From contig NZ_CP060092.1 of assembly GCF_014217335.1 (NCBI RefSeq), positions 3,737,501-3,801,500 of the forward strand: a stretch of DNA of 64,000 nt. Direction: 5' to 3'. This DNA comes from Teredinibacter purpureus. Lineage in GTDB: Bacteria > Pseudomonadota > Gammaproteobacteria > Pseudomonadales > Cellvibrionaceae. The translations under genes were made by a program, and so were the position numbers. Within the stretch, counting starts at the first letter, position 1, and the number at the start of each line of letters is the position of its first letter. Below, in pieces: positions 1 to 25,736 of the stretch. The notes beneath the pieces are model-generated. The model saw only the letters and a list, made by a program, of their open reading frames with translations. It was not told the DNA's origin and made no database searches.

Positions 1-28
1 AGTAATTTATATTTCATATTGTGTAGCT

Positions 29-135
29 ATAACGCCGCCATAAATTGCGGCTTTGTAGTTGATTGTTTTGTGGCAGCGTAGCGTTAAGCCACAAAAAAAG
101 CGACGGAAAAGCCGTCAATTTGATGGCCTTGTTAC
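29..135 (-). other. attC site 1
   Basis: Recombination site of cassette 33-570. The junction core AAC is at 31-33 and the distal core GTTAC at 131-135. It belongs to the class that begins CGCCGCCATAAATTGCGG, shared with the sites at 7391, 8417 and 18730. Confidence 0.9.
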
Positions 136-558
136 AAGCTGCCGTACTATGAGCCAAAAGACTAAGCCTGAAACTGCACCACAAAAGCCAAAACCCAGCA
201 GAAACTTTAATTGGTACAAAAGGCCTGCTGTAGTGTAGCTGCCATTTTCAATGATTATTGTTTGCCCCACAACACTACGAGTCGTGCCGCCCGGAAAACT
301 AAATAGTAGCCAAGGAGCGGCTGAAATTAATGCACCGCCTAAAGTTAAAGAACGAAAGTTAATACAACCTTTAGCTTTAAGAAGTAAATATATAGGTATA
401 CCAACAATTGCGGAAATAACCCAACTTACAATAACTGCCCAAGCAGATATCCCACCAAAAATTTCACCAATACCGCCATATAGCACAACCCATATTAGTG
501 CACCTATAGGCGGGGCTATTAAAAACCCACTGATTGGATACAACGATGCTCGATTCAT
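115..558 (-). CDS. Four-TM membrane protein, cassette gene
   Basis: A 147-residue integral membrane protein with about four hydrophobic segments (roughly residues 12-32, 38-60, 72-92 and 118-140). I do not recognise the family. It looks like a distant paralogue of the cassette proteins at 7479-7895, 8505-8963 and 18818-19276: same size, same topology, and the same kind of C-terminal tail (VTRPSN here). The stop codon and the last few codons lie inside its own attC, so tail and attC are inherited together. The start at 558 lies close to the cassette junction at 571. No function can be assigned. Confidence 0.75.
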   Translation of the reverse strand: MNRASLYPISGFLIAPPIGALIWVVLYGGIGEIFGGISAWAVIVSWVISAIVGIPIYLLLKAKGCINFRSLTLGGALISAAPWLLFSFPGGTTRSVVGQTIIIENGSYTTAGLLYQLKFLLGFGFCGAVSGLVFWLIVRQLVTRPSN

Positions 559-564
559 TTTGCC

Positions 565-636
565 TTGTAACGCCTTTATAACGGGCGCGCTGTAAGCGCG
601 TCCAGCCGAAGGCGTTCGTTGATAAACTTGTTAAAT
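565..636 (-). other. attC site 2
   Basis: A short attC (about 70 bp) of cassette 571-933. The AAC core is at 569-571 and GTTAAAT starts at 630. The central palindrome pairs GGGCGCGC with GCGCGTCC. Confidence 0.85.
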
Positions 637-642
637 GTTGGG

Positions 643-909
643 CTAGATGCAATCACTAAACACATAGCATGCCGTCCAAATTAATGAAAACCAACTGAAA
701 GCAAAAGCTATGGCAAAATATACTATTACAAGCTCCCAGCTACTTTTATACTGCTTATATAAGAATGCCCCAAGTGACGATGACAAAAATAGAACTGCAT
801 AGCTTATTGGAGCAGAGCTAATCCCCAAAAATTCACCAAGAGAGAAGATTAGGAAAACTGGCAATAAGGGTACTACAAATGCTCCTGCAATATATTGACG
901 CCTACTCAA
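643..909 (-). CDS. Three-TM membrane protein, cassette gene
   Basis: A small hydrophobic protein with three predicted membrane segments and no recognised family. The longest reading frame opens at an ATG at 942, but that codon lies beyond the cassette junction (933), in the neighbouring attC. A TTG at 909, seven bases after a good AAGGA ribosome binding site, keeps the whole gene inside its own cassette and gives an 88-residue protein starting MSRRQY. I prefer this start. A fusion start in the upstream attC remains possible. Likely inner-membrane protein of unknown role. Confidence 0.65.
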   Translation of the reverse strand: MSRRQYIAGAFVVPLLPVFLIFSLGEFLGISSAPISYAVLFLSSSLGAFLYKQYKSSWELVIVYFAIAFAFSWFSLIWTACYVFSDCI

Positions 910-927
910 TGCTAATTCCTTGTGTAC

Positions 928-1032
928 ATTTAACGCCTGCATTTGCGGTTTGGGTGAAGTGGCGGCTGTTTTGCGTTTTTTTGCAAAACAGGTGGCAGTT
1001 TACCCAAATCCGGCAAGATGCACTTGTTATGA
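928..1032 (-). other. attC site 3
   Basis: attC of cassette 934-1494. The AAC core is at 932-934 and the distal GTTATGA starts at 1026. The arms contain GTTTTGCGTTTTTTTGC-like stem sequence. Confidence 0.85.
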
Positions 1033-1473
1033 GTGTTTATACCAAGCGTCGGATTTATATTGCTCTGGAATATCTTGATCAAACGGGTCGTCATAACCTA
1101 GTTTCTCTAATTCACTAAACCAAAGCTCGCTCTTATTAGGTAATTTAGTACCACACCAAGGGCAATTTCTAATTGGTGTTCGAGCAGGCCTAGGATCGTT
1201 AATTGCGTACTCATCAAATTTAGGGCTATATAAAATTATTACGTCATCACACTCGATTGAATCTGAGTGCTTATCACATTTGAAAGTAGCATATTTTGCC
1301 ATATGTACACATGGGTATCTCTCAAGATCAACACCATCAATCTTGAGTTGAACTGCTGTCATAACATCACTGCACGATTCACAATCTCTTACGTGATCAA
1401 AGCATGAAGATAGAATTTCTCCTTCCATGTTTTGATAACCTTTATAATTTTTGACGAAATCTTCGCAATTCAT
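1027..1473 (-). CDS. DUF6980-like putative zinc-binding protein
   Basis: A 148-residue soluble protein. The C-terminal half carries CDDVIILYSPKFDEYAI followed by NCPWCGTKLP and a tail ending in SDAWYKHS. This pattern matches what I recall of the DUF6980 family, where cysteines including CPWCG probably bind zinc. The N-terminal half is also cysteine-rich (CFDHVRDCESC, about residues 24-34). Function in the family is not known; related small proteins often occur in accessory DNA. It fills cassette 934-1494, with an ATG start at 1473 preceded by a purine-rich GGAAG. The stop overlaps the attC core. Confidence 0.75.
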   Translation of the reverse strand: MNCEDFVKNYKGYQNMEGEILSSCFDHVRDCESCSDVMTAVQLKIDGVDLERYPCVHMAKYATFKCDKHSDSIECDDVIILYSPKFDEYAINDPRPARTPIRNCPWCGTKLPNKSELWFSELEKLGYDDPFDQDIPEQYKSDAWYKHS

Positions 1474-1488
1474 TTCATGCTTCCATAC

Positions 1489-1572
1489 TCATAACGCCCC
1501 AAGCAGAGGCTTATTTTGCGTTTTGGAGCGAAGCGACAGCAAAATAAGTCCTGCTGGCTTGGCTTGTTAGTT
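1489..1572 (-). other. attC site 4
   Basis: attC of cassette 1495-2005 (about 80 bp). The AAC core is at 1493-1495 and GTTAG at 1566-1570. The arms pair TTATTTTGC-type sequence with GCAAAATAA. Confidence 0.88.
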
Positions 1573-1986
1573 TTCTTTGTAGAGAACTTTACATTCATCA
1601 ATTCCATATCCTTCAGATTCAAGGTTAAAACTATGCATGAAGATATATACTCCCGGCTCACCAAATATTTTTATATTCTTTCTAACTGGCGTCCATTTGA
1701 CGGGGGCTGCAACGGCATTATTAACACTGATCTCAAAGCTACTAATATTCTTAAATTTTTCTGCATGGTAAAGAGATGGAAAATCCTCATCAGGAGCAGG
1801 ATAAACTATAAACATCCAATTATCGTCAGGAGTTTTTACCCCAAAATATCCCCCATGAGGAACAGAAATCGAGAAATTTAAAACATCTCCGTTTGATACC
1901 TCTTTTGGACTACAACTAAACTCAACTTCTCCAAAAGCTAAGGGACATACTAAGTATAAAGTAATAAGTAGATTAATTTTTGCCAT
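1567..1986 (-). CDS. Exported protein of unknown function, cassette gene
   Basis: A 139-residue protein with a clear N-terminal signal peptide (MAKINLLITLYLVCPLAFGE; cleavage likely after AFG) and a beta-rich mature part with two cysteines, one early (FSCSPKE) and one late (DECKVLY), that could form a disulfide. Probably periplasmic. The start at 1986 has an AGGAAGG ribosome binding site four bases upstream. The stop TAA is formed within the GTTAG core of the attC. No family recognised. Confidence 0.75.
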   Translation of the reverse strand: MAKINLLITLYLVCPLAFGEVEFSCSPKEVSNGDVLNFSISVPHGGYFGVKTPDDNWMFIVYPAPDEDFPSLYHAEKFKNISSFEISVNNAVAAPVKWTPVRKNIKIFGEPGVYIFMHSFNLESEGYGIDECKVLYKEN

Positions 1987-1999
1987 AACCTTCCTGAAA

Positions 2000-2118
2000 A
2001 ACTAACGCCGAGCTCACCGGCGCATATTGCGGAGAGCGTTTTTATGTAAAATGGAGCACCGCGACATACATAAAAACGAGCGTAGCAATATGCGTCCGTG
2101 TGCAGCGATTTGTTACTT
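2000..2118 (-). other. attC site 5 (cassette B, copy 1)
   Basis: AAC core at 2004-2006, GTTAC at 2112-2116. Type member of the class beginning CGCCGAGCTCACCGGCGC, found again nearly identical at 8973, 11725, 14932, 16595, 19286 and 21190. Confidence 0.92.
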
Positions 2119-2500: not shown

Positions 2501-2613
2501 CGTCTTGCTCACCTGCACATACTGCGGAGAGCGTTTTTGTGTAAAATGGAGCGTAGCGACAGACACAAAAACGAGCGTAGCAGTATGTGTCAGCGTGCAG
2601 CAACTTGTTAGCT
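2495..2613 (-). other. attC site 6
   Basis: attC of cassette 2501-3107. The AAC core is at 2499-2501 and GTTAGC starts at 2607. It is related to the cassette B class but diverged (CGTCTTGCTCACCTGCACAT). Confidence 0.88.
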
Positions 2614-3078: not shown

Positions 3079-3101
3079 ATTTACTCGAATTTTCGCGTAG
3101 A

Positions 3102-3197
3102 AGCTAACGTTGCAATTTGCGGCTGAAGTGTAGGCGCGAAGCGCCGAAACGGAGGTCCAGTGAGCGAAGCGAACGAGGCAAGATTGCCTTGTTAAGT
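3102..3197 (-). other. attC site 7
   Basis: attC of cassette 3108-3469. The AAC core is at 3106-3108 and GTTAAG starts at 3191. The inner arms resemble those at 11093 and 22108 (GGAGGTCCAG motif). Confidence 0.88.
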
Positions 3198-3443: not shown

Positions 3444-3463
3444 TTTCTCTTCCAACTGATGGA

Positions 3464-3568
3464 ACTTAACGCCGCCAGCAACTGCCGGAGTAAATTGGCT
3501 GGTTTTTTGCGTCTTTTTGCAAAAAAGAAGACAGTTTACGGAGGTCAGATTGACTGGCCTTGTTCTGT
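3464..3568 (-). other. attC site 8 (degenerate distal core)
   Basis: attC of cassette 3470-3967. The AAC core is at 3468-3470. The distal core reads GTTCTGT (3562-3568) instead of the usual GTTAnnn. Class beginning CGCCGCCAGCAACTGCCGG, shared with the sites at 6898, 9986 and 13122. Confidence 0.85.
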
Positions 3569-3569
3569 G

Positions 3570-3961: not shown

Positions 3962-4060
3962 ACAGAACGCCTAAATAATTTGCCTCAGTAAATTGGCGGT
4001 TTTTTTGCCCCGCAAAAAAGACGACAGTTTACGTAGGTCAAATTGATTTACTTGTTACAA
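3962..4060 (-). other. attC site 9 (cassette D, copy 1)
   Basis: AAC core at 3966-3968, GTTACAA from 4054. Class beginning CGCCTAAATAATTTGCC, repeated at 14578. Confidence 0.88.
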
Positions 4061-4321
4061 TAGCTGCATGATTACCTGCTACGAAGCACTATGCGAAGCC
4101 GTTGGTTAATTATTAAAGGGCAAGAATACCGAACTTGAAGATTCCTTGCACTCACTTATTGGCAGCTTACATTGAACGGGTTTGGCTGCCGATACTGCTT
4201 ATTATTTAGTGGCACCGGAACGAACTGAAGGGATAGAAACCCAGCACATTCCTTGATGCTATTTCTCTGCTAGTGGCAGAGTTTTTAAAACCATTACAAA
4301 TTAAATTGAAACAGCCTGTAA
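3968..4321. repeat. Repeated non-coding cassette D, copy 1
   Basis: This 354-bp cassette has no open frame of useful length in either direction. It contains a GGCAGC/GCTGCC stem, and at 4264-4286 a plus-strand hairpin (CTCTGC-TAGTG-GCAGAG) followed by a T run, like a rho-independent terminator. A near-identical copy lies at 14584-14937. The terminator orientation is antisense to the cassette array, so the cassette may specify a short plus-strand RNA (inference). Confidence 0.75.
4264..4290 (+). terminator. Terminator-like hairpin in cassette D1
   Basis: CTCTGC stem, five-base loop, GCAGAG stem, then TTTTT on the plus strand. The same structure is at 14881-14904 in copy D2. Confidence 0.55.
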
Positions 4322-4426
4322 CGCCCAGTTAACCCGCCGAAACGGAGTTGATTGTTTTGTGCGAGCGTAGCGAAAAAGCACAAAACGAGCAACGCAGTGG
4401 AGGTCGGGTTGAACTGATTGTTATAC
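4316..4426 (-). other. attC site 10
   Basis: attC of cassette 4322-4892. The AAC core is at 4320-4322 and GTTATAC starts at 4420. It shares CCGCCGAAACGGAGTTGA-type arms with the site at 6053. Confidence 0.88.
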
Positions 4427-4886: not shown

Positions 4887-4996
4887 GTATAACGCCAAGT
4901 GCAGCGGCAGTTTGTGGAGTGGCTTTTTGTGTAGCGTAGCGATTTACACAAAACAAGCCACGTAGCAAACTGTCCGTCTGGCACGACTTGTTAAAT
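4887..4996 (-). other. attC site 11
   Basis: attC of cassette 4893-5409. The AAC core is at 4891-4893 and GTTAAAT starts at 4990. Confidence 0.88.
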
Positions 4997-5403: not shown

Positions 5404-5519
5404 ATTTAACGCCTGTAGCACCTGCACAAATTGTGGAGTGCCGTTTGTGTAACATTGAGCGTAGCGAAAACACAATAAGGCGCGTAGCAATTTGTGTCAG
5501 GTGACTACACTTGTTAGCT
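5404..5519 (-). other. attC site 12
   Basis: attC of cassette 5410-6058. The AAC core is at 5408-5410 and GTTAGC starts at 5513. Class beginning CGCCTGTAGCACCTGCAC, related to the site at 20103. Confidence 0.88.
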
Positions 5520-6052: not shown

Positions 6053-6163
6053 AGCTAACGCCGTTATAACCCGCCGGAACGGAGTTGATTTGTTTGCGCT
6101 AGCGTAGCGTTTAAGCGTAAACAAAGCAGCGCAGTGGAGGTCGGGTTGATAACCTTGTTATGT
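6053..6163 (-). other. attC site 13
   Basis: attC of cassette 6059-6475. The AAC core is at 6057-6059 and GTTATG starts at 6157. Arms similar to the site at 4316. Confidence 0.88.
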
Positions 6164-6469: not shown

Positions 6470-6587
6470 ACATAACGTCGTTGTAACAAGCGCGCAATTG
6501 ACGAACTTGTTACGGAAAAATGCACTTGAATTCCGCTTACAAATTTAAGCGTTGTCTGGCGCGTCTTTGTTTACAACCTTGTTAGAA
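6470..6587 (-). other. attC site 14
   Basis: attC of cassette 6476-6903. The AAC core is at 6474-6476 and GTTAGAA starts at 6581. Arms pair ACAAGCGCGCAATTG-type sequence with GCGCGTCTTTGT. An extra internal GTTAC occurs at about 6510. Confidence 0.8.
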
Positions 6588-6897: not shown

Positions 6898-7002
6898 TTC
6901 TAACGCCGCCAGCAACTGCCGGAGTGAATTGGCTGCTTTTTTGCGTCTTTTTGCAAAAAAGAAGACAGTTTACGGAGGTCAGATTGACTGGCCTTGTTAG
7001 CA
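6898..7002 (-). other. attC site 15 (cassette E, copy 1)
   Basis: AAC core at 6902-6904, GTTAGC from 6996. Same class as the sites at 3464, 9986 and 13122, each attached to a different gene except E2. Confidence 0.9.
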
Positions 7003-7390: not shown

Positions 7391-7501
7391 TGCTAACGCC
7401 GCCATAAATTGCGGCTTTGTAGTTGATTATTTTGTGGTAGCGTAGCGTTAAGCCACAAAATAAGCGACGGAAAAGCCGTCATTTTGATGGCTTTGTTATG
7501 G
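7391..7501 (-). other. attC site 16
   Basis: attC of cassette 7397-7923. The AAC core is at 7395-7397 and GTTATG starts at 7495. Class of the site at 29 (CGCCGCCATAAATTGCGG). Confidence 0.9.
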
Positions 7502-7917: not shown

Positions 7918-8010
7918 CCATAACGCCACAATAACCGAGCGAAGCTAAGCGTGGTATTGTGAGCAAAGCGAACCACGCTTAGCGAAGTCCGGTTGATTGT
8001 TTTGTTACAT
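7918..8010 (-). other. attC site 17
   Basis: attC of cassette 7924-8422. The AAC core is at 7922-7924 and GTTAC at 8004-8008. Arms pair CGAAGCTAAGCGTGG with CCACGCTTAGCG almost perfectly. Confidence 0.9.
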
Positions 8011-8416: not shown

Positions 8417-8527
8417 ATGTAACGCCGCCATAAATTGCGGCTTTGTAGTTGGTTGTTTTGTGGTAGCGTAGCGTTAAACCACAAAACAAGCGACGGAAAA
8501 GCCGTCAATTTAATGGCCTTGTTAGTG
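8417..8527 (-). other. attC site 18 (cassette F, copy 1)
   Basis: AAC core at 8421-8423, GTTAGT from 8521. Class of the site at 29. Nearly identical to the site at 18730. Confidence 0.9.
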
Positions 8528-8972: not shown

Positions 8973-9091
8973 CACTAACGCCGAGCTCACCGGCGCATAT
9001 TGCGGAGAGCGTTTTTATGTAAAATGGAGCACCGCGACATACATAAAAACGAGCGTAGCAATATGCGTCCGTGTGCAGCGATTTGTTACTT
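8973..9091 (-). other. attC site 19 (cassette B, copy 2)
   Basis: AAC core at 8977-8979, GTTACT from 9085. Same class as the site at 2000. Confidence 0.92.
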
Positions 9092-9460
9092 GTACCAAAC
9101 ACCTACTCACTTTTAACTACGCTGCTACGCCAATTGCTGTATTTTTTTAAAAAGCCTGAAGCTTTGGTTAGACCCAACTATAACCGTGGGATAGCCAAAA
9201 CAGAAGGCATAAAATTGACCCAAAACAACAAGTGATTATGGCAACCAACAGAAAGGAACAAGCCGCAAACTCCCTTTTCTAGGTAAAGCTTGGTTGCACT
9301 TTTTTGCAACGAAGCTTTACCGGATTACCAAATCTACCTTTTACGAAGCACGTTGTAAGCGACCAAAGGTGGCTTACCTAAACTTGATGGAGGGTAACGA
9401 ATTTAGGAACACCCTACTGAAACTTAACTACACACCAAACTTTTTTTAATAGACAAGTAA
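8979..9460. repeat. Repeated non-coding cassette B, copy 2
   Basis: Copy of 2006-2500 with a 13-bp deletion near 9260 that removes most of the reading frame present on the plus strand of other copies. The hairpin at 9282-9321 is intact. Nothing else is recognised between 9092 and 9454. Confidence 0.85.
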
Positions 9461-9582
9461 CGCCGCCATATGCGGCAAATTTGGAGTTGTTTTTTTGTGC
9501 TAGCGTAGCGTTAAAGCACAAAACAAACAACGGAAAATTTGTCCAGCCAGCTTGCTGGCGCAGCATGATGGCCTTGTTAAAT
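9455..9582 (-). other. attC site 20 (cassette C, copy 1)
   Basis: AAC core at 9459-9461, GTTAAAT from 9576. Class beginning CGCCGCCATATGCGGCAAAT, repeated at 15427, 17089 and 17621. Confidence 0.92.
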
Positions 9583-9991
9583 GGCGATACACCAAACAAC
9601 ACCAACACTGCGTTGCGGAACGCAAATAGAGCTTTGCTACCAAAGTGGCGAACAACGCTACATGAACACCCGTAAACGCTAAACCTGAAAACCCTAAGAA
9701 GAACGACCGGTAAACTTTACACCACTACCCCGCTCTGCTTTTTTCTTCATTAAAACTACCCGCTCGAAAATAACACTTTTTACGAGTTACTAAAATATGC
9801 TTGCAACCAGTAAAACTTAAAATACTAAAACAGACTTTTAGAGTGGTTTGCACGGTTTAATGCTGGTAGAGCTAAACGAACTGTTTCGTTATGAAACTAG
9901 CATTATATTTAAAACCACTACACAGCTAAAAATGTAAGTTTAAAACTGAAATCTTCACGCCGTATAAATAGTATGTTGCCGAGCTATTTAA
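9461..9991. repeat. Repeated non-coding cassette C, copy 1
   Basis: A 531-bp cassette without a convincing gene. Short frames overlap the attC on both strands but do not extend into the body. The distinctive element is a nested inverted repeat at 9842-9919. The other copies are 15433-15963, 17095-17626 and 17627-18157, so copies 3 and 4 are a tandem pair. Confidence 0.85.
9842..9919. ncRNA. Nested stem-loop in cassette C (possible structured RNA)
   Basis: Three stems are nested in 78 nt: AGTGGTTT with AAACCACT at the ends, AATGCTGGT with ACTAGCATT inside (one G-T wobble position), and AACGAA-CTGT-TTCGTT at the tip. The same element is at 15814-15891, 17477-17554 and 18008-18085. Copies 2 and 3 carry AGCATA, which weakens one closing pair. 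Whether it is transcribed, and from which strand, is unknown. Confidence 0.45.
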
Positions 9992-10090
9992 CGCCGCCAG
10001 CAACTGCCGGAGTGAATTGGCTGCTTTTTTGCGTATTTTTGCAAAAAAGAAGACAGTTTACGGAGGTCAGATTGACTGGCCTTGTTAGCA
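9986..10090 (-). other. attC site 21 (cassette E, copy 2)
   Basis: AAC core at 9990-9992, GTTAGC from 10084. One base differs from the E1 site in the central arm. Confidence 0.9.
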
Positions 10091-10478: not shown

Positions 10479-10609
10479 TGCTAACGCTGCCATCAGCGGC
10501 AGACTAGTTGTTGATTGTTTTGTGTGAAAATGGCGTAGCCATGCACAAAACGAGCAACGACTAGGCTGTCCAAGCCACGCAGTGGCTGTGCTGCATGGCC
10601 TTGTTAGAT
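10479..10609 (-). other. attC site 22
   Basis: attC of cassette 10485-11098 (131 bp, among the longest here). The AAC core is at 10483-10485 and GTTAGA starts at 10603. Contains CCAAGCCACGCAGTGGCTGT in the right arm. Confidence 0.88.
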
Positions 10610-11092: not shown

Positions 11093-11218
11093 ATCTAACG
11101 CCGTTAGCAACGGCCGTAGTGTAGGTGTTTTTGTGCGTTAGCGTAGCGATAAACGCATAAAAATACCGGAACGGAGGTCCAGCCCGCTTGCGGGCGAGGT
11201 TGGCTAACCTTGTTAAAC
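11093..11218 (-). other. attC site 23
   Basis: attC of cassette 11099-11730. The AAC core is at 11097-11099 and GTTAAAC starts at 11212. Class beginning CGCCGTTAGCAACGGCCGTA, repeated at 22108. Confidence 0.9.
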
Positions 11219-11724: not shown

Positions 11725-11843
11725 GTTTAACGCCGAGCTCACCGGCGCATATTGCGGAGAGCGTTTTTATGTAAAATGGAGCACCGCGACATACATAAAA
11801 ACGAGCGTAGCAATATGCGTCCGTGTGCAGCGATTTGTTACTT
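11725..11843 (-). other. attC site 24 (cassette B, copy 3)
   Basis: AAC core at 11729-11731, GTTACT from 11837. Same class as the site at 2000. Confidence 0.92.
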
Positions 11844-12226
11844 GTACCAAACACCTACTCACTTTTAACTACGCTGCTACGCCAATTGCTGTATTTTTTT
11901 TAAAAAGCCTGAAGCTTTGGTTAGACCCAACTATAACCGTGGGATAGCCAAAACAGAAGGCATAAAATTGACCCAAAACAACAAGTGATTATGGCAACCA
12001 ACAGAAAGGAACAAACGGGAGGAATAAGCCGCAAACCCCCTTTGCTAGGTAAAGCTTGGTTGCACTTTTTTGCAACGAAGCTTTACCGGATTACCAAATC
12101 TACCTTTTACGAAGCACGTTGTAAGCGACCAAAGGTGGCTTACCTAAACTTGATGGAGGGTAACGAATTTAGGAACACCCTACTGAAACTTAACTACACA
12201 CCAAACTTTTTTTAATAGACAAGTAA
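11731..12226. repeat. Repeated non-coding cassette B, copy 3
   Basis: Copy of 2006-2500. The plus-strand 76-codon frame is open here (11985-12215). Hairpin at 12048-12087. No gene in cassette orientation. Confidence 0.85.
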
Positions 12227-12334
12227 CGCCTAGCTCACCGGCCCATTTTGTGGAGAGCATTTGTGTATTATGGAGCGCAGCGACTACACAAATGAGCGTA
12301 GAAAAATGGGTCCGCGTGCAGCGTTTGGTTATGT
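12221..12334 (-). other. attC site 25
   Basis: attC of cassette 12227-12670. The AAC core is at 12225-12227 and GTTATG starts at 12328. Related to the cassette B class (CGCCTAGCTCACCGGCCCAT). Confidence 0.88.
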
Positions 12335-12664: not shown

Positions 12665-12773
12665 ACATAACGCCCCGCTTAGAGGCAGTTTTGGAGCTGA
12701 TTGATTTATGGCAGTCTTTTCGCCATAAATTTAAGCGGCGGAAAAACTGTCCTTCTACAGCGGCTTGTTAGGA
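12665..12773 (-). other. attC site 26
   Basis: attC of cassette 12671-13127. The AAC core is at 12669-12671 and GTTAGG starts at 12767. Confidence 0.88.
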
Positions 12774-13121: not shown

Positions 13122-13226
13122 TCCTAACGCCGCCAGCAACTGCCGGAGTGAATTGGCTGCTTTTTTGCGTCTTTTTGCAAAAAAGAAGACAGTTTACGGA
13201 GGTCAGATTGACTGGCCTTGTTAGAA
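13122..13226 (-). other. attC site 27
   Basis: attC of cassette 13128-13536. The AAC core is at 13126-13128 and GTTAGA starts at 13220. Same class as the sites at 3464, 6898 and 9986. Confidence 0.9.
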
Positions 13227-13530: not shown

Positions 13531-13590
13531 TTCTAACGCCTAAAGCAAGCGCGCCGCTTTTTGGCGTCGCCTTGCCTTTACTTGTTAGCT
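13531..13590 (-). other. attC site 28 (short)
   Basis: A 60-bp attC of cassette 13537-13986. The AAC core is at 13535-13537 and GTTAGC starts at 13584. Classic compact form with arms CAAGCGCGCC / GGCGTCGCCTTG. Confidence 0.9.
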
Positions 13591-13980: not shown

Positions 13981-14082
13981 CGCTAACGCCGCATTAACGG
14001 GCGTTTTTGTTGTTGTTTGTTTTGTGCTAACAAGCACAAAACGAGCGACGACGAAAACGTCACGTTGAATGCCTTGTTAGAA
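13981..14082 (-). other. attC site 29
   Basis: attC of cassette 13987-14583. The AAC core is at 13985-13987 and GTTAGA starts at 14076. Confidence 0.9.
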
Positions 14083-14577: not shown

Positions 14578-14676
14578 TTCTAACGCCTAAATAATTTGCC
14601 GCAGTAAATTGGCGGTTTTTTTGCCCCGCAAAAAAGACGACAGTTTACGTAGGTCAAATTGATTTACTTGTTACAA
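14578..14676 (-). other. attC site 30 (cassette D, copy 2)
   Basis: AAC core at 14582-14584, GTTACAA from 14670. Same class as the site at 3962. Confidence 0.9.
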
Positions 14677-14937
14677 CAGCTGCATGATTACCTGCTACGA
14701 AGCACTATGCGAAGCCGTTGGTTAATTATCAAAGGGCAAGAATACCGAATTTGAAGATTCCTTGCACTCACTTATTGGCAGCTTACATTGAACGGGTTTG
14801 GCTGCCGATACTGCTTATTATTTAGTGGCACCGGAACGAACTGAAGGGATAGAAACCCACCACATTCCTTGATGCTATTTCTCTGCTAGTGGCAGAGTTT
14901 TTAAAACCATTACAAATTAAATTGAAACAGCCTGTAA
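14584..14937. repeat. Repeated non-coding cassette D, copy 2
   Basis: Near-identical copy of 3968-4321, with the same plus-strand terminator-like hairpin at 14881-14904 and no gene. Confidence 0.78.
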
Positions 14938-15050
14938 CGCCGAGCTCACCGGCGCATATTGCGGAGAGCGTTTTTATGTAAAATGGAGCACCGCGACATA
15001 CATAAAAACGAGCGTAGCAATATGCGTCCGTGTGCAGCGATTTGTTACTT
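14932..15050 (-). other. attC site 31 (cassette B, copy 4)
   Basis: AAC core at 14936-14938, GTTACT from 15044. Class of the site at 2000. Confidence 0.92.
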
Positions 15051-15432
15051 GTACCAAACACCTACTCACTTTTAACTACGCTGCTACGCCAATTGCTGTA
15101 TTTGTTTAAAAAGCCTGAAGCTTTGGTTAGACCCAACTATAACCGTGGGATAGCCAAAACAGAAGGCATAAAATTGACCCAAAACAACAAGTGATTATGG
15201 CAACCAACAGAAAGGAACAAACGGGAGGAATAAGCCGAAAACTCCCTTTGCTAGGTAAAGCTTGGTTGCGCTTTTTTGCAACGAAGCTTTACCGGATTAC
15301 CAAATCTACCTTTTACGAAGCACGTTGTAAGCGACCAAAGGTGGCTTACCTAAACTTGATGGAGGGTAACGAATTTAGGAACACCCTACTGAAACTTAAC
15401 TACACACCAAACTTTTTTTAATAGACAAGTAA
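14938..15432. repeat. Repeated non-coding cassette B, copy 4
   Basis: Copy of 2006-2500. The plus-strand 76-codon frame is open (15191-15421). Hairpin at 15254-15293. Followed on its right by cassette C copy 2. Confidence 0.85.
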
Positions 15433-15554
15433 CGCCGCCATATGCGGAAAATTTGGAGTTGTTTTTTTGTGCTAGCGTAGCGTTAAAGCACAAAACAAAC
15501 AACGGAAAATTTGTCCAGCCAGCTTGCTGGCGCAGCATGATGGCCTTGTTAAAT
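15427..15554 (-). other. attC site 32 (cassette C, copy 2)
   Basis: AAC core at 15431-15433, GTTAAAT from 15548. Class of the site at 9455, with GCGGAAAAT in place of GCGGCAAAT. Confidence 0.92.
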
Positions 15555-15963
15555 GGCGATACACCAAACAACACCAACACTGCGTTGCGGAACGCAAATG
15601 GAGCCTTGCTACCAAAGTGGCGAACAACGCTACATGAACACCCGTAAACGCTAAACCTGAAAACTCTAAGAAGAACGACCGGTAAACTTTACATCACTAC
15701 CCCGCTCTGCTTTTTTCTTCATTAAAACTACCCGCTCGAAAATAACACTTTTTACGAGTTACTAAAATATGCTTGCAACCAGTAAAACTTAAAATACTAA
15801 AACAGACTTTTAGAGTGGTTTGCACGATTTAATGCTGGTAGAGCTAAACGAACTGTTTCGTTATGAAACTAGCATAATATTTAAAACCACTACACAGCTA
15901 AAAATGTAAGTTTAAAACTGAAATCTTCACGCCGTATAAATAGTATGTTGCCGAGCTATTTAA
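15433..15963. repeat. Repeated non-coding cassette C, copy 2
   Basis: Copy of 9461-9991 with the nested stem-loop at 15814-15891 and no credible gene. Confidence 0.85.
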
Positions 15964-16071
15964 CGCAGAGTGCAGCTGCATTTTGGTTGGTGTGGAGTTT
16001 TGTGTAGCATGGCGAAGCCATACACAAAATGGAGCGCCGACCAAAATGTCAGCTGGCACGTATTGTTAGGG
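15958..16071 (-). other. attC site 33
   Basis: attC of cassette 15964-16600. The AAC core is at 15962-15964 and GTTAGG starts at 16065. Confidence 0.88.
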
Positions 16072-16594: not shown

Positions 16595-16713
16595 CCCTAA
16601 CGCCGAGCTCACCGGCGCATATTGCGGAGAGCGTTTTTATGTAAAATGGAGCACCGCGACATACATAAAAACGAGCGTAGCAATATGCGTCCGTGTGCAG
16701 CGATTTGTTACTT
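16595..16713 (-). other. attC site 34 (cassette B, copy 5)
   Basis: AAC core at 16599-16601, GTTACT from 16707. Class of the site at 2000. Confidence 0.92.
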
Positions 16714-17094
16714 GTACCAAACACCTACTCACTTTTAACTACGCTGCTACGCCAATTGCTGTATTTTTTTAAAAAGCCTGAAGCTTTGGTTAGACCCAAC
16801 TATAACCGTGGGATAGCCAAAACAGAAGGCATAAAATTGACCCAAAACAACAAGTGATTATGGCAACCAACAGAAAGGAACAAACGGGAGGAATAAGCCG
16901 CAAACTCCCTTTGCTAGGTAAAGCTTGGATGCGCTTTTTTGCAACGAAGCTTTACCGGATTACCAAATCTACCTTTTTCGAAGCACGTTGTAAGCGACCA
17001 AAGGTGGCTTACCTAAACTTGATGGAGGGTAACGAATTTAGGAACACCCTACTGAAACTTAACTACACACCAAACTTTTTTAATAGACAAGTAA
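16601..17094. repeat. Repeated non-coding cassette B, copy 5
   Basis: Copy of 2006-2500. One T fewer near the end lets the plus-strand frame read on into the next attC (to 17138). The hairpin at 16917-16956 has a second mismatch. Confidence 0.85.
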
Positions 17095-17217
17095 CGCCGC
17101 CATATGCGGCAAATTTGGAGTTGTTTTTTTTGTGCTAGCGTAGCGTTAAAGCACAAAAAAAACAACGGAAAATTTGTCCAGCCAGCTTGCTGGCGCAGCA
17201 TGATGGCCTTGTTAAAT
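17089..17217 (-). other. attC site 35 (cassette C, copy 3)
   Basis: AAC core at 17093-17095, GTTAAAT from 17211. Class of the site at 9455. Confidence 0.92.
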
Positions 17218-17626
17218 GGCGATACACCAAACAACACCAACACTGCGTTGCGGAACGCAAATGGAGCCTTGCTACCAAAGTGGCGAACAACGCTACATGA
17301 ACACCCGTAAACGCTAAACCTGAAAACTCTAAGAAGAACGACCGGTAAACTTTACATCACTACCCCGCTCTGCTTTTTTCTTCATTAAAACTACCCGCTC
17401 GAAAATAACACTTTTTACGAGTTACTAAAATATGCTTGCAACCAGTAAAACTTAAAATACTAAAACAGACTTTTAGAGTGGTTTGCACGGTTTAATGCTG
17501 GTAGAGCTAAACGAACTGTTTCGTTATGAAACTAGCATAATATTTAAAACCACTACACAGCTAAAAATGTAAGTTTAAAACTGAAATCTTCACGCCGTAT
17601 AAATAGTATGTTGCCGAGCTATTTAA
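17095..17626. repeat. Repeated non-coding cassette C, copy 3
   Basis: Copy of 9461-9991 with the nested stem-loop at 17477-17554. Directly followed by copy 4 in the same orientation. Confidence 0.85.
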
Positions 17627-17748
17627 CGCCGCCATATGCGGCAAATTTGGAGTTGTTTTTTTGTGCTAGCGTAGCGTTAAAGCACAAAACAAACAACGGA
17701 AAATTTGTCCAGCCAGCTTGCTGGCGCAGCATGATGGCCTTGTTAAAT
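17621..17748 (-). other. attC site 36 (cassette C, copy 4)
   Basis: AAC core at 17625-17627, GTTAAAT from 17742. Class of the site at 9455. Confidence 0.92.
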
Positions 17749-18157
17749 GGCGATACACCAAACAACACCAACACTGCGTTGCGGAACGCAAATGGAGCTT
17801 TGCTACCAAAGTGGCGAACAACGCTACATGAACACCCGTAAACGCTAAACCTGAAAACCCTAAGAAGAACGACCGGTAAACTTTACACCACTACCCCGCT
17901 CTGCTTTTTTCTTCATTAAAACTACCCGCTCGAAAATAACACTTTTTACGAGTTACTAAAATATGCTTGCAACCAGTAAAACTTAAAATACTAAAACAGA
18001 CTTTTAGAGTGGTTTGCACGGTTTAATGCTGGTAGAGCTAAACGAACTGTTTCGTTATGAAACTAGCATTATATTTAAAACCACTACACAGCTAAAAATG
18101 TAAGTTTAAAACTGAAATCTTCACGCCGTATAAATAGTATGTTGCCGAGCTATTTAA
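17627..18157. repeat. Repeated non-coding cassette C, copy 4
   Basis: Copy of 9461-9991, second member of a tandem pair. Nested stem-loop at 18008-18085. At the sites compared it matches copy 1 better than its neighbour copy 3 (for example AGCATT), so it may come from a separate insertion rather than simple tandem duplication. Confidence 0.82.
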
Positions 18158-18227
18158 CGCCTTTGGAAGGGGCTGCGTTGTGGCGAAGCCACGCTTTTAG
18201 CAGTCCCGCTTGCCAAACTTGTTAGGG
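18152..18227 (-). other. attC site 37 (short)
   Basis: attC of cassette 18158-18735. The AAC core is at 18156-18158 and GTTAGG starts at 18221. Confidence 0.85.
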
Positions 18228-18729: not shown

Positions 18730-18840
18730 CCCTAACGCCGCCATAAATTGCGGCTTTGTAGTTGGTTGTTTTGTGGTAGCGTAGCGTTAAACCACAAAAC
18801 AAGCGACGGAAAAGCCGTCAATTTAATGGCCTTGTTAGTG
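18730..18840 (-). other. attC site 38 (cassette F, copy 2)
   Basis: AAC core at 18734-18736, GTTAGT from 18834. Matches the site at 8417. Confidence 0.9.
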
Positions 18841-19285: not shown

Positions 19286-19404
19286 CACTAACGCCGAGCT
19301 CACCGGCGCATATTGCGGAGAGCGTTTTTATGTAAAATGGAGCACCGCGACATACATAAAAACGAGCGTAGCAATATGCGTCCGAGTGCAGCGATTTGTT
19401 ACAT
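19286..19404 (-). other. attC site 39 (cassette-B-type attC on a different gene)
   Basis: AAC core at 19290-19292, GTTACA from 19398. The attC is of the cassette B class, but the sequence beyond it is the gene at 19399-19776, not the B body. Confidence 0.9.
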
Positions 19405-19782: not shown

Positions 19783-19843
19783 ATGTAACGCCTTTAGCAT
19801 GTGCGCCCGCCTTTTGGGCGTCGCATGGCTAAACTTGTTAAGG
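19783..19843 (-). other. attC site 40 (short)
   Basis: A 61-bp compact attC of cassette 19789-20108. The AAC core is at 19787-19789 and GTTAAG starts at 19837. Arms GTGCGCCCGCC / GGGCGTCGCA. Confidence 0.9.
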
Positions 19844-20102: not shown

Positions 20103-20218
20103 CTTTAACGCCTATAGCACCTGCACAAATTGTGACGCGCCTTTTTGGTAAAATGTGAGCAACGCGAACACCAAAAAGGCGCGTTGCAATTTGTGTCAGG
20201 TGGCTATACTTGTTAGGC
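20103..20218 (-). other. attC site 41
   Basis: attC of cassette 20109-20829. The AAC core is at 20107-20109 and GTTAGG starts at 20212. Related to the site at 5404. Confidence 0.9.
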
Positions 20219-20823: not shown

Positions 20824-20922
20824 GCCTAACGCCCAAATAATTCGCCGGAGCGAGATGGCTGCTTTTTTGCTCCGCAAAAAAGAAGACAGCTTGCGGAGGT
20901 CGAATTGATTTGTTTGTTATGG
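20824..20922 (-). other. attC site 42
   Basis: attC of cassette 20830-21195. The AAC core is at 20828-20830 and GTTATG starts at 20916. Arms resemble the cassette D class. Confidence 0.88.
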
Positions 20923-21189: not shown

Positions 21190-21308
21190 CCATAACGCCG
21201 AGCTCACCGGCGCATATTGCGGAGAGCGTTTTTATGTAAAATGGAGCACCGCGACATACATAAAAACGAGCGTAGCAATATGCGTCCGTGTGCAGCGATT
21301 TGTTACTT
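21190..21308 (-). other. attC site 43 (cassette B, copy 6)
   Basis: AAC core at 21194-21196, GTTACT from 21302. Class of the site at 2000. Confidence 0.92.
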
Positions 21309-21689
21309 GTACCAAACACCTACTCACTTTTAACTACGCTGCTACGCCAATTGCTGTATTTTTTTAAAAAGCCTGAAGCTTTGGTTAGACCCAACTATAA
21401 CCGTGGGATAGCCAAAACAGAAGGCATAAAATTGACCCAAAACAACAAGTGATTATGGCAACCAACAGAAAGGAACAACCGGGAGGAATAAGCCGCAAAC
21501 TCCCTTTGCCAGGTAAAGCTTGGTTGCGCTTTTTGCAACGAAGCTTTACCGGATTACCAAATCTACCTTTTACGAAGCACGTTGTAAGCGACCAAAGGTG
21601 GCTTACCTAAACTTGATGGAGGGTAACGAATTTAGGAACACCCTACTGAAACTTAACTACACACCAAACTTTTTTTAATAGACAAGTAA
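21196..21689. repeat. Repeated non-coding cassette B, copy 6
   Basis: Copy of 2006-2500 with one T missing in the hairpin loop (21512-21550). This breaks the plus-strand reading frame but leaves both stems intact. Confidence 0.85.
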
Positions 21690-21797
21690 CGCCGCTGTAT
21701 GAGGCATTTTTTGTGTAGTGGAGTTTTGGGGTATAGTGGCGAAGCCACCCCAAAACGAAGCGAAGCAAAAAATGTCCTTATGACAGCTTTGTTATGT
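21684..21797 (-). other. attC site 44
   Basis: attC of cassette 21690-22113. The AAC core is at 21688-21690 and GTTATG starts at 21791. Central arms similar to the site at 22580 (GTGGCGAAGCCACC). Confidence 0.88.
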
Positions 21798-22107: not shown

Positions 22108-22238
22108 ACATAACGCCGTTAGCAACGGCCGTAGTGTAGGTGTTTGTGTTGTGCTAGCGTCAGCGTTAAAGCACATAAACAAACACCGGAACGGAGGTCC
22201 AGCCCGTTTACGGGCGAGGTTGGCTAACTTGGTTATGT
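22108..22238 (-). other. attC site 45
   Basis: attC of cassette 22114-22585. The AAC core is at 22112-22114 and GTTATG starts at 22232. Same class as the site at 11093. Confidence 0.9.
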
Positions 22239-22240
22239 TT

Positions 22241-22552: not shown

Positions 22553-22579
22553 CTAGACCTCTCCTTTATTCAGCCGCAA

Positions 22580-22693
22580 ACATAACGCCTTTGTAACGGG
22601 CATTTTTTGTGAAGTGGAGTTTTGCGGTAAAGTGGCGAAGCCACCGCAAAACGGAGCGTAATAAAAAATGTCCTGTTGACAAACTTGTTATGC
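22580..22693 (-). other. attC site 46
   Basis: attC of cassette 22586-23057. The AAC core is at 22584-22586 and GTTATG starts at 22687. Confidence 0.88.
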
Positions 22694-22695
22694 AT

Positions 22696-23034: not shown

Positions 23035-23051
23035 GTTCAATTTCTCATGTT

Positions 23052-23129
23052 GCATAACGCCCGTGTATGCGGACGGAGTGGAAGCGCGAAGCGCTGGAAT
23101 GGAGTTCCGACATGACACGCTTGTTAGCC
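23052..23129 (-). other. attC site 47
   Basis: attC of cassette 23058-24026 (78 bp). The AAC core is at 23056-23058 and GTTAGC starts at 23123. Confidence 0.88.
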
Positions 23130-23136
23130 TCTGTTT

Positions 23137-23997
23137 TTAGCCCTTTGGTATTGCTTTTTTTAAGCCGTCTGTTAAAAGCAGAGAAAACACACTAAAATGT
23201 GTTTCTCCATCCAATACATAGGCGTTAAACGTTAATCCCTTATATTGCCTATTTTTAAGTATTTTTTCGAAAAGCAAGACATCATCAACCATGCTTTTAT
23301 GGTTGTTTTTATTTTCTTCGCTACCAATATACATAAAGACAGTTGCATTCATCGCTTTGTTCTTTTTTGCATACGCCTCTTCTAGACGGAAAATAGCTCC
23401 TTCGTCATACCATAATGACGGACTACCTATAATATATTTCTGAAATAGTTCTGGTTTAACCAAAAGGGTGTAAGCTCCCAAAAGCCCTCCAAAAGAGTGG
23501 CCTATATAGATTTTATTATCCACATCAATACGGTATTTTTGAGATATTAAAGGAAAAACCTCCTTCTCCAAAAACTCCAAGTACTGGAATGCTTTACCCG
23601 AATATTTTTGAGCTTCTAAGGAATGTGCTCCTTTTTCACCTGGAGCGAAAGTTGGCGTGTAATCTCTAGTCCGACTAATTTCGGAAGAACTCCCTTTTGA
23701 ATATGATATACCTACTAGAATGAGATCTTCAATATCTCTGCCTCCCATAAGGCCAACTACACCACTAGCGATAGGAAAAGAAAATCCAGTATCACTTAAA
23801 ATTGCAACGGGATAATTTTTTTTCGTCTGTGAATAGTTACGAGGTAGCTTTATATATAATTCATAATCTTGTTTATTAATACCTGAACTGATTGTTACTA
23901 TTTCCGTACCACTTATTCTATATTCCGAAATTTCCTCAGCCTTAATGGTGAGTGATAACATAGATAATATAAGTGCATAAATATAACGTAATAACAT
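23137..23997 (-). CDS. Exported alpha/beta hydrolase, esterase D/BesA-like
   Basis: A 286-residue protein, the largest cassette gene in the window. A signal peptide (MLLRYIYALILSMLSLTIKA) places it in the periplasm or outside. The nucleophile elbow is GHSFGG with Ser168, and the catalytic His is likely His267 in DGETHFS. The acid residue is not obvious (a candidate lies near 228, GSEENKNNH). The layout matches the PF00756 esterase family, which includes siderophore-ester hydrolases (IroE/BesA type) and esterase D. The substrate is not determinable. Start at 23997; AAAGGA lies 12 bases upstream. Cassette 23058-24026. Confidence 0.82.
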   Translation of the reverse strand: MLLRYIYALILSMLSLTIKAEEISEYRISGTEIVTISSGINKQDYELYIKLPRNYSQTKKNYPVAILSDTGFSFPIASGVVGLMGGRDIEDLILVGISYSKGSSSEISRTRDYTPTFAPGEKGAHSLEAQKYSGKAFQYLEFLEKEVFPLISQKYRIDVDNKIYIGHSFGGLLGAYTLLVKPELFQKYIIGSPSLWYDEGAIFRLEEAYAKKNKAMNATVFMYIGSEENKNNHKSMVDDVLLFEKILKNRQYKGLTFNAYVLDGETHFSVFSLLLTDGLKKAIPKG

Positions 23998-24020
23998 TAA
24001 TTTTTTGATTCCTTTAGGGA

Positions 24021-24113
24021 AGCTAACGCCCAAATATGGGGCCGTAGTGGAGGAGCGAAGCGACGGAACGGAGGTCCCAGCAGCTTTGCTGCGCCATGAT
24101 TTGTTTGTTATGT
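24021..24113 (-). other. attC site 48
   Basis: attC of the first (attI-proximal) cassette. The AAC core is at 24025-24027 and GTTATG starts at 24107. Contains CCCAGCAGCTTTGCTGCG. Confidence 0.88.
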
Positions 24114-24114
24114 T

Positions 24115-24462
24115 TTAATCGAACTCCCATAGTTCCTGCTCGGTTAGATCAATGATTGTTCCACCCTGAATTTTGAAACCCTCTGAATAGCTAGTTGAAG
24201 ATCCAAACAAGTGATATTTGGTTGCCTCAACGATTACGTTTAACGTGCCATCCTGATCCATTTCACTATAAATAACCAAAGGATATTTTTTGCCAAAAAC
24301 ATCGTATTCTTTTTTCAATGGCTCTTTTTCATAAACCTTTAACTCTGCTTCAGGCTTTGACTTAAGCGAATCCCTCAAACGGATTAAATCAGATTTTATT
24401 AGATCAATTGTTTCCATACCTGCCTTAAACATAACAGTTGTATCTACGACATAAGGCGTCAT
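24115..24462 (-). CDS. Hypothetical protein in the first cassette
   Basis: A 115-residue soluble acidic protein of unknown family (alpha N-terminal part, beta C-terminal part). As the cassette nearest attI it should be the most recently inserted and the best expressed from an integron promoter. Possible starts are 24462 (MTPYVVD, close to a GGGGA), 24432 (MFKAG) and 24417 (METID). The first is given. Internal repeat sequence just upstream is shared with attI (see 24469). Confidence 0.62.
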   Translation of the reverse strand: MTPYVVDTTVMFKAGMETIDLIKSDLIRLRDSLKSKPEAELKVYEKEPLKKEYDVFGKKYPLVIYSEMDQDGTLNVIVEATKYHLFGSSTSYSEGFKIQGGTIIDLTEQELWEFD

Positions 24463-24468
24463 ATCCCC

Positions 24469-24481
24469 ATGTCGGTATATT
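24469..24481. repeat. 13-bp direct repeat, left copy
   Basis: ATGTCGGTATATT occurs at 24469-24481 and again at 24577-24589, on both sides of the presumed attI junction. Part of it (CGACATAAGG, 24447-24456) is also inverted relative to CCTTATGTCG at 24573-24582. Confidence 0.8.
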
Positions 24482-24491
24482 TATTTTCGAT

Positions 24492-24704
24492 AACGCAACA
24501 AATTACTCGCAACGCCCCGTCCCGTCAAGGTCTCAGAGGAGAACGGTTTACGACGCCAGCCGTGATATGGAACCTTATGTCGGTATATTAAGATAATTTT
24601 GCGCCGCTAACCCATTGATTTCAATAGGAAATATATTTAAGTCCCTTGTATTGAGGACATAACAGCAAAACTACTGCTGGAAAACGTGCGACCACGACTG
24701 TAAG
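24492..24704 (-). other. attI recombination platform (inferred)
   Basis: The stretch between the first cassette gene and the integrase gene. The first AAC junction core is at 24492-24494 (GCGTTATCG on the minus strand), and a second GCGTTGCG-type core is at about 24509-24516, giving two TTGCG repeats as expected for integrase binding. The cassette promoter (Pc) should also be here. A minus-strand TTGAAA (24619-24624) could be its -35 box, but I see no convincing -10. Exact attI limits cannot be set by eye. Confidence 0.5.
24577..24589. repeat. 13-bp direct repeat, right copy
   Basis: Second ATGTCGGTATATT, 108 bp from the copy at 24469. Confidence 0.8.
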
Positions 24705-24720
24705 CTGTATATATAAACAG
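24705..24720 (+). promoter_or_regulatory. LexA box upstream of intI
   Basis: CTGTATATATAAACAG fits the gammaproteobacterial LexA operator CTGT-N8-ACAG with an AT-rich centre. It ends 20 bp before the intI start and overlaps a TATATA -10-like sequence, so LexA binding would block intI transcription until the SOS response is induced. Confidence 0.88.
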
Positions 24721-24740
24721 CAGTATGAGCGCAATTTACC

Positions 24741-25736
24741 ATGGATGATATACGACCAAACCTACCGCAAAAACCCGTTAGATTTATGGATCAACTGCGG
24801 AGCCATATTCGCAGTAAGCAGCTCGCCTACAGCACTGAAAAAACCTATTGCAGCTGGATTAAACATTTCATTCATTTTCACAATAGAGCTCACCCCAAAG
24901 ATCTTGGCGCTGAGCAGGTCGACGCCTTTTTGAGTTATCTTGCAGTTGACCGTAATGTTTCCGTCAACACTCAGAAAACCGCACTTAATGCTTTGGTCTT
25001 TATGTACCATCAATTTTTTAATATTCAATTGGGCACGCTTCAGTTTGTTCCGAGCGTCACGCCACAAACGTTGCCTACAGTTTTTAGCCATCGTGAGGCA
25101 ATGGCGGTTATTAATCAGTTGCAGGGCGTTTACAAATTGGCGGCATTGCTTATGTATGGCTCTGGCCTACGCGTAATGGAATGTGCTCGATTAAGAATTC
25201 AAGACGTAGACTTCGAAAATAATTGTATCGTCGTTAGGGAGGGTAAAGGAAGAAAATGGCGTAGAACAATATTACCTGAAGTCAGTCTAGATACTCTTAA
25301 AGTACAAATACAATATGCTTTGGCATTACATAATAAGGATATCGGCGAAGGCTTTGGCGAAGTCTATCTTCCCGATGCTTTAGAAAAGAAATACCCGTGT
25401 GCAGCGCGCAACCCCGCATGGCAATATGTTTTTCCTGCAAAGAATACAGCCGTTGATCCTCGTGGAGGGACCATTAGGCGTCATCACATTGGTGAAAAAC
25501 AAATACAGAGAAAAGTTAAACTCGCGATCCAGGCGGCCCATGTTTATAAAAAATCAGGGTGCCATACTTTTCGTCATTCATTTGCAACACAACTTTTACA
25601 AAGTGGCGCTGACATTCGAAATATTCAGGAATTAATGGGGCATTCAGATTTGTCGACTACCCAAATATATACGCATGTTATTGGTGTTCATGAACGAGGG
25701 CTGTGCAGCCCCGTTGATAAAACCATTTACGAGTAA
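24741..25736 (+). CDS. intI: Integron integrase (tyrosine recombinase)
   Basis: A 331-residue IntI. The N-terminal SAM-like core-binding domain covers about residues 12-100, and the catalytic domain follows. Active-site residues are visible: Arg144 (GSGLRVME), Lys near 169-172 (GKGRKWRR), HTFRH (275-279), His301 (GHSDLSTTQ) and Tyr310 (IYTHV). The IntI-specific insertion, which recognises the extrahelical bases of attC, is present at about 209-232 ([11 protein letters not shown] ... WQYVFPA). Length and motifs indicate an intact enzyme. It excises and integrates cassettes between single-stranded attC and double-stranded attI. Transcribed divergently from the cassettes, with a LexA operator in front. 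Start ATG at 24741. Confidence 0.97.

Follow-up and report, generated by a model that had tools for sequence, protein, structure and literature searches.

We analyzed a chromosomal integron of Teredinibacter purpureus, found in a 64,000-nucleotide stretch of its genome (contig NZ_CP060092.1, positions 3,737,501 to 3,801,500; hereafter the window). Within the window, an array of 48 attC sites spans positions 28-24112, with the recombinogenic bottom strand of every site on the + strand; this is the strand quoted for sites throughout, and cassette genes lie on the - strand. Next to the array are the open reading frame (ORF) of the first cassette (24115-24462, -, 115 amino acids (aa), from the ORF list), a putative attI (approximately 24489-24555, no strand assigned), a LexA (SOS) box and intI (24741-25736, +), which encodes an integron integrase of 331 aa. 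This protein scores 406.8 bits against TIGR02249 (cut-off 265), finds its best match among solved structures in Vibrio integrase 2a3v (E 3.3e-76, residues 15-326 aligned), and contains the motifs GSGLR, GKG, HTFRH, GHSD and YTHV, which we take to carry the catalytic residues of IntI. The LexA box, CTGTATATATAAACAG (24705-24720, +), matches the consensus CTGT-N8-ACAG perfectly and ends 20 bases 5' of the intI start codon; the intI of Vibrio sedentary integrons likewise carries an SOS box. The attI is a candidate proposed from its position and sequence, which consists of a GATAAC crossover box and then, as far as the intI promoter region, of sequence that is not attC; promoter scans near attI gave results hardly above those for shuffled sequence.

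A scan for stems and boxes recovered 46 of the 48 attC sites, and a covariance model (R1) trained on 32 window sites of classical R/L-box structure supported all 48 and added the remaining two. The sites, with R1 scores in bits, lie at 28-136 (97.5), 566-635 (41.6), 929-1031 (65.5), 1490-1571 (57.2), 2496-2612 (78.6), 3103-3196 (41.6), 4317-4425 (87.4), 4888-4995 (71.6), 5405-5518 (77.8), 6054-6162 (84.7), 6471-6586 (56.6), 6899-7001 (72.5), 7392-7500 (93.5), 7919-8009 (48.9), 8418-8526 (95.9), 9456-9581 (80.5), 9987-10089 (72.8), 10480-10608 (69.2), 11094-11217 (69.8), 12222-12333 (75.3), 12666-12772 (72.8), 13123-13225 (72.8), 13982-14081 (78.4), 14579-14675 (66.3), 15428-15553 (72.4), 15959-16070 (73.3), 17090-17216 (82.3), 17622-17747 (81.6), 18153-18226 (51.2), 18731-18839 (95.7), 20104-20217 (82), 20825-20921 (65.4), 21685-21796 (90), 22109-22237 (59.4), 22581-22692 (88.3) and 23053-23128 (54.7). 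To these are added a class of 117 nucleotides (nt) with the motif GAGCTC at 2001-2117 (73.5), 8974-9090 (73.5), 11726-11842 (74.1), 14933-15049 (73.8), 16596-16712 (73.5), 19287-19403 (73.3) and 21191-21307 (73.7), short sites at 13532-13589 (44.5) and 19784-19842 (47.6), the sites found by R1 only at 3465-3567 (59.4) and 3963-4059 (55.5), and the site of the first, intI-proximal cassette at 24022-24112 (53.1).

These sites have the structural properties of attC. At a score of at least 10, the stem and box scan gave 36 matches in window positions 1-26000, against 0.7 per 26 kb of Markov-shuffled sequence. In the alignment of the 32 sites used for R1, 89% of cells are paired and the covariation score is 0.622, compared with 0.132 for shuffled and at most 0.123 for slid alignments; the R boxes TAAC/GTTA are invariant, a 3-nt unpaired spacer is present, and the L stem of 5-6 bp covaries strongly. 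When folded as single-stranded DNA, 66 of 81 sites (46 in the window and 35 to its left) were more stable than their shuffles at z<-2, the other 15 not reaching this value. Of 561 sites across the genome, 369 carry G as the extrahelical base, hence this feature is not universal. A search of the whole genome with a degenerate attC consensus pattern gave no matches, even at known attC sites, and the pattern was rejected as unsuitable. An Rfam scan of the window reported tRNAs only.

The preliminary description of the window, made from its letters alone, had proposed a large, class-diverse chromosomal integron of 48 readable attC sites in at least eight recurring classes, with a full-length integrase and its left end outside the window. 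All of this holds. At a threshold of 80% identity, 45 window sites from the stem and box scan fall into 23 classes, of which 9 recur within the window and 18 genome-wide; 561 sites of the whole genome form 122 classes, 61 of them recurring. The array extends about 24 kb to the left of the window, to approximately window coordinate -24,399 (C1:3713101, where C1 denotes contig coordinates), and comprises 81 sites in 48.5 kb by the stem and box scan, or 84 by R1 (48 in the window, 33 in stretch L012 and 3 in L011). A remnant of a tyrosine recombinase, a frame of 100 aa, lies at the far left array end (C1:3712706-3712948, -). Situated on a 4.64-Mb contig that carries dnaA, and with 80 usable cassettes, the array is not of the mobile-integron type, in which a plasmid or transposon carries few cassettes. 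We conclude that a real attC array and a full-length integrase are confirmed. The further suggestion, that class diversity reflects gain of cassettes from different sources, gives only part of the picture. For 54 of the 80 array cassettes, a twin of at least 98% identity exists within this genome, either in the window array or in another one; copying and exchange inside one genome are therefore a major source.

The window array is one of many in this genome (G000), which we compared with seven other congeneric genomes, among them that of a sister species (G001). Using R1 at E<=0.01, we found 589 attC sites in 0.94 Mb of fetched G000 stretches (86 matches on the window side, 183, 189 and 132, minus one mirror-strand match), distributed over 11 loci, and no match in 11 control stretches totaling 220 kb. 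As many as 541 of the R1 matches lie outside the window and are independent of the training sites. The looser stem and box scan, which gave 11 isolated matches in the same controls, also totals 589 when isolated matches are included, an agreement that is coincidental, the R1 count being the better figure. The counts leave out scan clusters of a single match, as well as 8 weak R1 matches and 16 from two loci that overlapped others. A whole-genome R1 search gave at least 150 matches in many clusters, these being the best 150 of 2,416 candidates, and the attC counts are therefore lower bounds. Read with up to 150 candidates scored per genome, R1 matches occur in all seven congeneric genomes (at least 149, 149, 143, 141, 111, 66 and 16), and dispersed clusters are plain in G000, G001, G003, G004 and G006, the five for which match lists were examined.

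G000 has two genes that score above the cut-off for integron integrases: the window intI and a second full-length gene at 1.19 Mb (C1:1191771-1192838, -), which belongs to a different clade. No R1 match was found in the 19-kb stretch around the latter, where the stem and box scan gave one doubtful match of 47 nt. In a tree including one intI per other genome, the window gene groups with those of G004, G005, G007, G019, Saccharophagus and a Cellvibrionaceae metagenome-assembled genome (MAG); its nearest named relatives are Saccharophagus sp. K07 and the Cellvibrionaceae MAG (63%). Ten of the 11 loci lack a gene above the integrase cut-off and contain at least two attC sites each, so that they are by definition clusters of attC sites lacking integron integrases (CALINs). 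The largest locus has 131 usable cassettes, two platforms in tandem and no intI. With 11 loci and two intI genes, the arrangement departs from the one array in one place that is usual for sedentary integrons, though not part of their definition.

Since the exact end of an array can be read from a twin of its first cassette, we compared seven G000 array starts for which such a twin exists. Five of them lead, at the exact cassette boundary, to one common sequence, one leads to a further attC, and one is uninformative. The common sequence, an attI-like unit of approximately 133-300 bp, has 13 matches in the whole G000 genome, of which 11 cover at least 133 of 145 bases; the remaining pair consists of a truncated copy (1.009 Mb) and a weak match of 69 bases (2.981 Mb). 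Across all 11 units, identity over roughly the first 133 bases is at least 90%, and eight have 215 bases or more in common. Each of these 11 stands at the proximal end of an intI-less array, approximately 260 to 2,250 bases from its nearest attC, the copy at 2,631,984 dividing one long locus into two arrays, and the platforms so defined carry 10-72 usable cassettes each. The unit has no copies in the seven congeneric genomes. In G001 a different repeat family was found, with 10 copies in the fetched stretches. One of them, at 668193, is situated between an intI and its array, which marks it as attI; an orphan copy is 79% identical to it over 203 bp. Nine of the 10 G001 copies head attC sites found by R1.

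The presence of these units bears on how the intI-less arrays arose. They could be decayed CALINs, the remains of one giant integron that inversions and insertion sequences split into pieces; insertion sequences do occur in and beside the arrays. Fragmentation predicts a single attI, though, against the 11 near-full copies found at intI-less proximal ends, and twins of at least 98% identity across loci that share almost no common order need copying rather than breakage. The 11 copies thus disfavor decay, which we regard as improbable; a degraded integron without a platform does not describe loci that carry attI-like units, inferred in function, at their proximal ends. Alternatively, IntI may have seeded arrays at scattered non-classical attG sites, with later growth by attC x attC recombination. 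Integration at attG sites across E. coli, as cited in PMC12444791, would allow this, and a DNA comparison of array flanks in G000 and G001, made to see whether array positions are conserved, gave mostly short or repeat-like matches. Such seeding predicts unrelated targets, however, whereas one sequence bounds the intI-less arrays of G000 and an attI-like family is present in G001, so that this origin also appears unlikely. From the sequences, intI-less arrays are best read as attI platforms served in trans and not as platform-less debris.

In order to follow the movement of cassettes, we kept 539 cassettes, dropping bodies shorter than 60 or longer than 3000 bp and sites on the minority strand. 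A twin of at least 98% identity exists for 271 of them, and an identical body for 199; 77 of the 88 multi-copy cassette families are present in more than one cluster. Twin pairs are located in the same locus about as often as in shuffled data (99 of 607, against 82.5+-10.9; 11 loci), and collinear runs of twins comprise 585 of a single cassette, 11 of two and none longer. We examined the 585 twin pairs that have different neighbors at the level of the crossover. The two boundary bases on the cassette side agree in 584 of 585 pairs, those on the host side in 71 of 585, compared with 11% in random pairs; the cassette's own attC is alike in 527 pairs, while the next attC is alike in 7 of 577, against 1.3% at random. 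The same pattern was obtained in G001, where 17 of 69 twins share a locus (17.3 in shuffled data) and the boundary bases agree in 67 of 67 pairs on the cassette side and 18 of 67 on the host side. Identity up to the cassette boundary and background levels beyond the IntI crossover indicate that single cassettes move by site-specific recombination between loci.

Exchange by RecA-dependent recombination or gene conversion between near-identical attC sites, with no part for IntI, would have to contend with these figures. Large classes of near-identical attC sites are indeed present in many loci, yet homologous exchange would bring the same attC class on both sides of a cassette; instead the next attC is alike no more often than in random pairs, and identity ends at the very base of the IntI crossover. 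Homologous recombination between attC sites was rejected on this test, and we consider a RecA origin of the twins highly improbable. The sequences thus show cassettes traveling one at a time and joining, through the IntI crossover, an attC or attI of whichever locus receives them. What can be seen of recombination here are footprints, in the form of exact crossovers between arrays, which the window IntI may have left.

We therefore favor, with a probability of roughly 0.75, a distributed chromosomal integron in which the window array is the part that carries intI, and in which IntI exchanges single cassettes in trans. Around the chromosome lie about a dozen arrays, of which those without intI would each begin at a copied attI-like platform; IntI would excise a cassette from one array and re-insert it singly into another, and all arrays would then form one mixed cassette pool. 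The components on which this view is built, namely the arrays, the movement of single cassettes with the expected crossover and the common sequence at intI-less proximal ends, are evident at the level of the genome sequence. The common sequence would presumably be a working attI; we infer that the acting enzyme is the IntI of the window or else the one encoded at 1.19 Mb, and the way in which extra cassette copies are made is deduced likewise.

Several observations weigh against this view. Same-side neighbors of twins agree in 20 of 991 cases, above the 0.4% of shuffled data, which indicates a small amount of movement in blocks. Twins are no commoner close to platforms (32 of 60 in the first five positions, 239 of 478 in the rest), and attI therefore need not be the main entry point. 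Re-acquisition of cassettes from other cells would leave identical crossovers. One G001 copy, at 4049236, has no R1 attC before the next copy. Finally, the G000 unit is unlike the flanks of every fetched intI locus, and unlike the window's own attI region as well; with no counterpart there, its attI function is read from its place and from the crossover, and its match to the window IntI is unproven.

Most attC sites also share an orientation relative to replication. In G000 the GC skew is below zero at 0.65 Mb, clearly above it between 0.96 and 3.1 Mb and below it again from 3.3 Mb on; dnaA lies at 0.876 Mb, and R1 matches are on the - strand from 0.83 to 2.98 Mb and on the + strand from 3.30 to 3.76 Mb. 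A lone + site occurs among the - group (L038:8970-9081); a tRNA scan of L038 found none. The cluster at 0.83-0.85 Mb (C1:830534-849622) has 24 R1 sites, 23 of them on the - strand, and lies to the left of dnaA. The skew of its non-array flanks is about zero or negative (-0.005, -0.073, +0.004 and -0.037), hence the origin is more likely at dnaA, which places 23 of the 24 cluster sites on the unusual side. The leading-strand rule, reported for 25 of 30 sedentary integrons (PMC5371416), is obeyed by 566 of the 589 sites with the origin at dnaA, and by 588 if the origin is to the left of the cluster.

Among the matches listed for sister genomes, the rule holds for 149 of 149 in G001, 106 of 111 in G003 and 62 of 66 in G004. 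In G003 and G004 the sites that break the rule fall into groups with 2, 3 and 4 listed members; two of these groups lie close to an intI gene or a fragment of one. Reversed arrays are reported to be smaller, with up to 22 cassettes (PMC5371416), and the exceptions in G003 and G004 fit this small size, the 24-site cluster of G000 less well. In G006, with dnaA taken as the origin, the unusual side holds 6 of 145 listed C1 sites; a further 4 listed sites lie on another contig. The unusual-side groups, of 2-6 listed sites, are at C1:554773-558079 and 1345489-1350911 in G003, C1:3887618-3899613 in G004 and C1:2411953-2417372 in G006.

Both the dispersal of platforms and their orientation might be explained if platforms had spread as passengers of a system resembling REP-associated tyrosine transposases (RAYT, REP being repetitive extragenic palindromes) or IS200, the strand bias of which would help to set array orientation. 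Six of the 11 attI-like units end at TTAACATGGGTGTCCGATTATT and diverge just beyond this motif. With up to a few changes, the same motif ends four copies, 97-99% identical, of a transposase gene encoding 325-329 aa, the product of which has 52% identity to a protein with a Y1_Tnp match and matches REP-associated transposases (NF047646) below the cut-off. The 22-bp motif follows the window intI at 25768-25789 (+), has a second match at 28427-28448 (+), and is also found 3' of other genes. Of its 26 groups in the genome, 25 are either on the - strand (0.83 to 2.98 Mb) or on the + strand (3.76 to 4.51 Mb). If dnaA marks the origin, two groups (0.83 and 0.85 Mb) become exceptions and 23 of 26 share one orientation relative to replication. 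IS200/IS605 elements insert into the lagging-strand template (PMC6006769).

Against this addition, no shared left end was found at the distal array borders, and the fetched or sampled G001 stretches contained no RAYT-like gene, yet orientation is perfect in the 149 matches listed for that genome. The NF047646 scores are below cut-off, the strand preference of this family was not predicted beforehand, and selection for leading-strand orientation (PMC5371416) suffices to explain the bias. The 23 sites that fall on the unusual side with the origin at dnaA lower the odds of this addition, and of the full combination below, a little further. Platform dispersal by a RAYT/IS200-like system is suggestive and unproven on these sequence data; we consider it possible and would lean against it. 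The full combination, in which the attI platform is a multi-copy module spread by RAYT/IS200, one or two integrases acting in trans run a dozen arrays as a shared pool and array orientation reflects replication-coupled insertion, is a tentative proposal that we hold to be rather doubtful.

Other mobile elements were noted in the course of this comparison. At C1:4504274-4504433 (+), four RAYT right-end motifs stand head to tail with a period of 53 bases. A recombinase of 305 aa looked at first like an integrase carried by a cassette but belongs to an IS91-like element of approximately 2304 bp that is present in five full copies and encodes a tyrosine recombinase and an IS91 transposase; its ends lack the motif seen at attI-like units. 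Left ends of this element lie at C1:2120540, 2666029 and 2683095 (-) and at 3299863, 3548558 and 3685078 (+), and all six abut TTGTT. Where these were set against R1 matches, TTGTT is the end of an attC, which would make attC the apparent target of the element. Directly adjoining the window intI are genes for a HipB-like helix-turn-helix protein and HipA, a toxin-antitoxin pair (26112-27772, +).

A sense ORF of at least 60 aa is present in 478 of the 539 cassettes, and 300 of 327 non-redundant cassette proteins were scanned. The first 150 match 73 Pfam families, with transposase rve domains foremost (12 members), and the next 150 match 30. PADLOC, applied to the first 150, gave hints of defense proteins; at least one protein matches reverse transcriptases strongly, others match Thoeris-like, TIR and Cas1-like models. 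The three commonest cassettes (20, 17 and 13 copies) have no sense ORF longer than 73 aa. The most-copied cassettes, including those of the window with the 117-nt GAGCTC attC (for example 21191-21684), are apparently non-coding and could be small RNAs, promoters or selfish cassettes.

Among the closest described systems is that of Saccharophagus degradans 2-40, whose genus name is also that of the nearest named relative of the window intI. It has a core integron and five satellite sites (PMC2386152), and resembles the present case in having one integrase-flanked array, cassette clusters elsewhere, little synteny and most satellites at or in a transposase gene. According to the same source, the system comprises 40 core genes, five satellites and one 140-bp repeat conserved at more than 95%, in contrast to the 11 loci, 589 R1 attC sites, 122 classes among 561 sites, attI-like array heads and crossover-level test reported here. 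Vibrio superintegrons have comparable attC arrays, with the bottom strand mostly on the leading-strand template (PMC5371416, PMC11023631). A survey of 30 sedentary integrons of this type found up to 203 cassettes in one array (PMC5371416), whereas the largest locus here has 131 usable cassettes on two tandem platforms, without intI. Known CALINs, described with IntegronFinder (PMC9024848) and in Xanthomonas (PMC12444791), are also attC clusters without a neighboring intI, and can be mobilized in trans (PMC12444791); they have a mean of almost 6 attC sites (PMC9024848, PMC12444791), against 10-72 usable cassettes per intI-less platform here and an attI-like unit heading each. A literature search, with most subscription papers outside its scope, found no account of multiple, orphan or duplicated attI.

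In the usual view an integron has one platform and one attI, and integrase-less arrays are debris. In T. purpureus, the integrase-less arrays bear apparent copies of a docking site and exchange single cassettes chromosome-wide, with about 590 attC sites in one genome, and dispersed clusters are present in four congeneric genomes too, judging by the match lists examined. This makes testable the questions of how CALINs originate, whether one IntI may serve many platforms, what sets array orientation and how cassette copies multiply.

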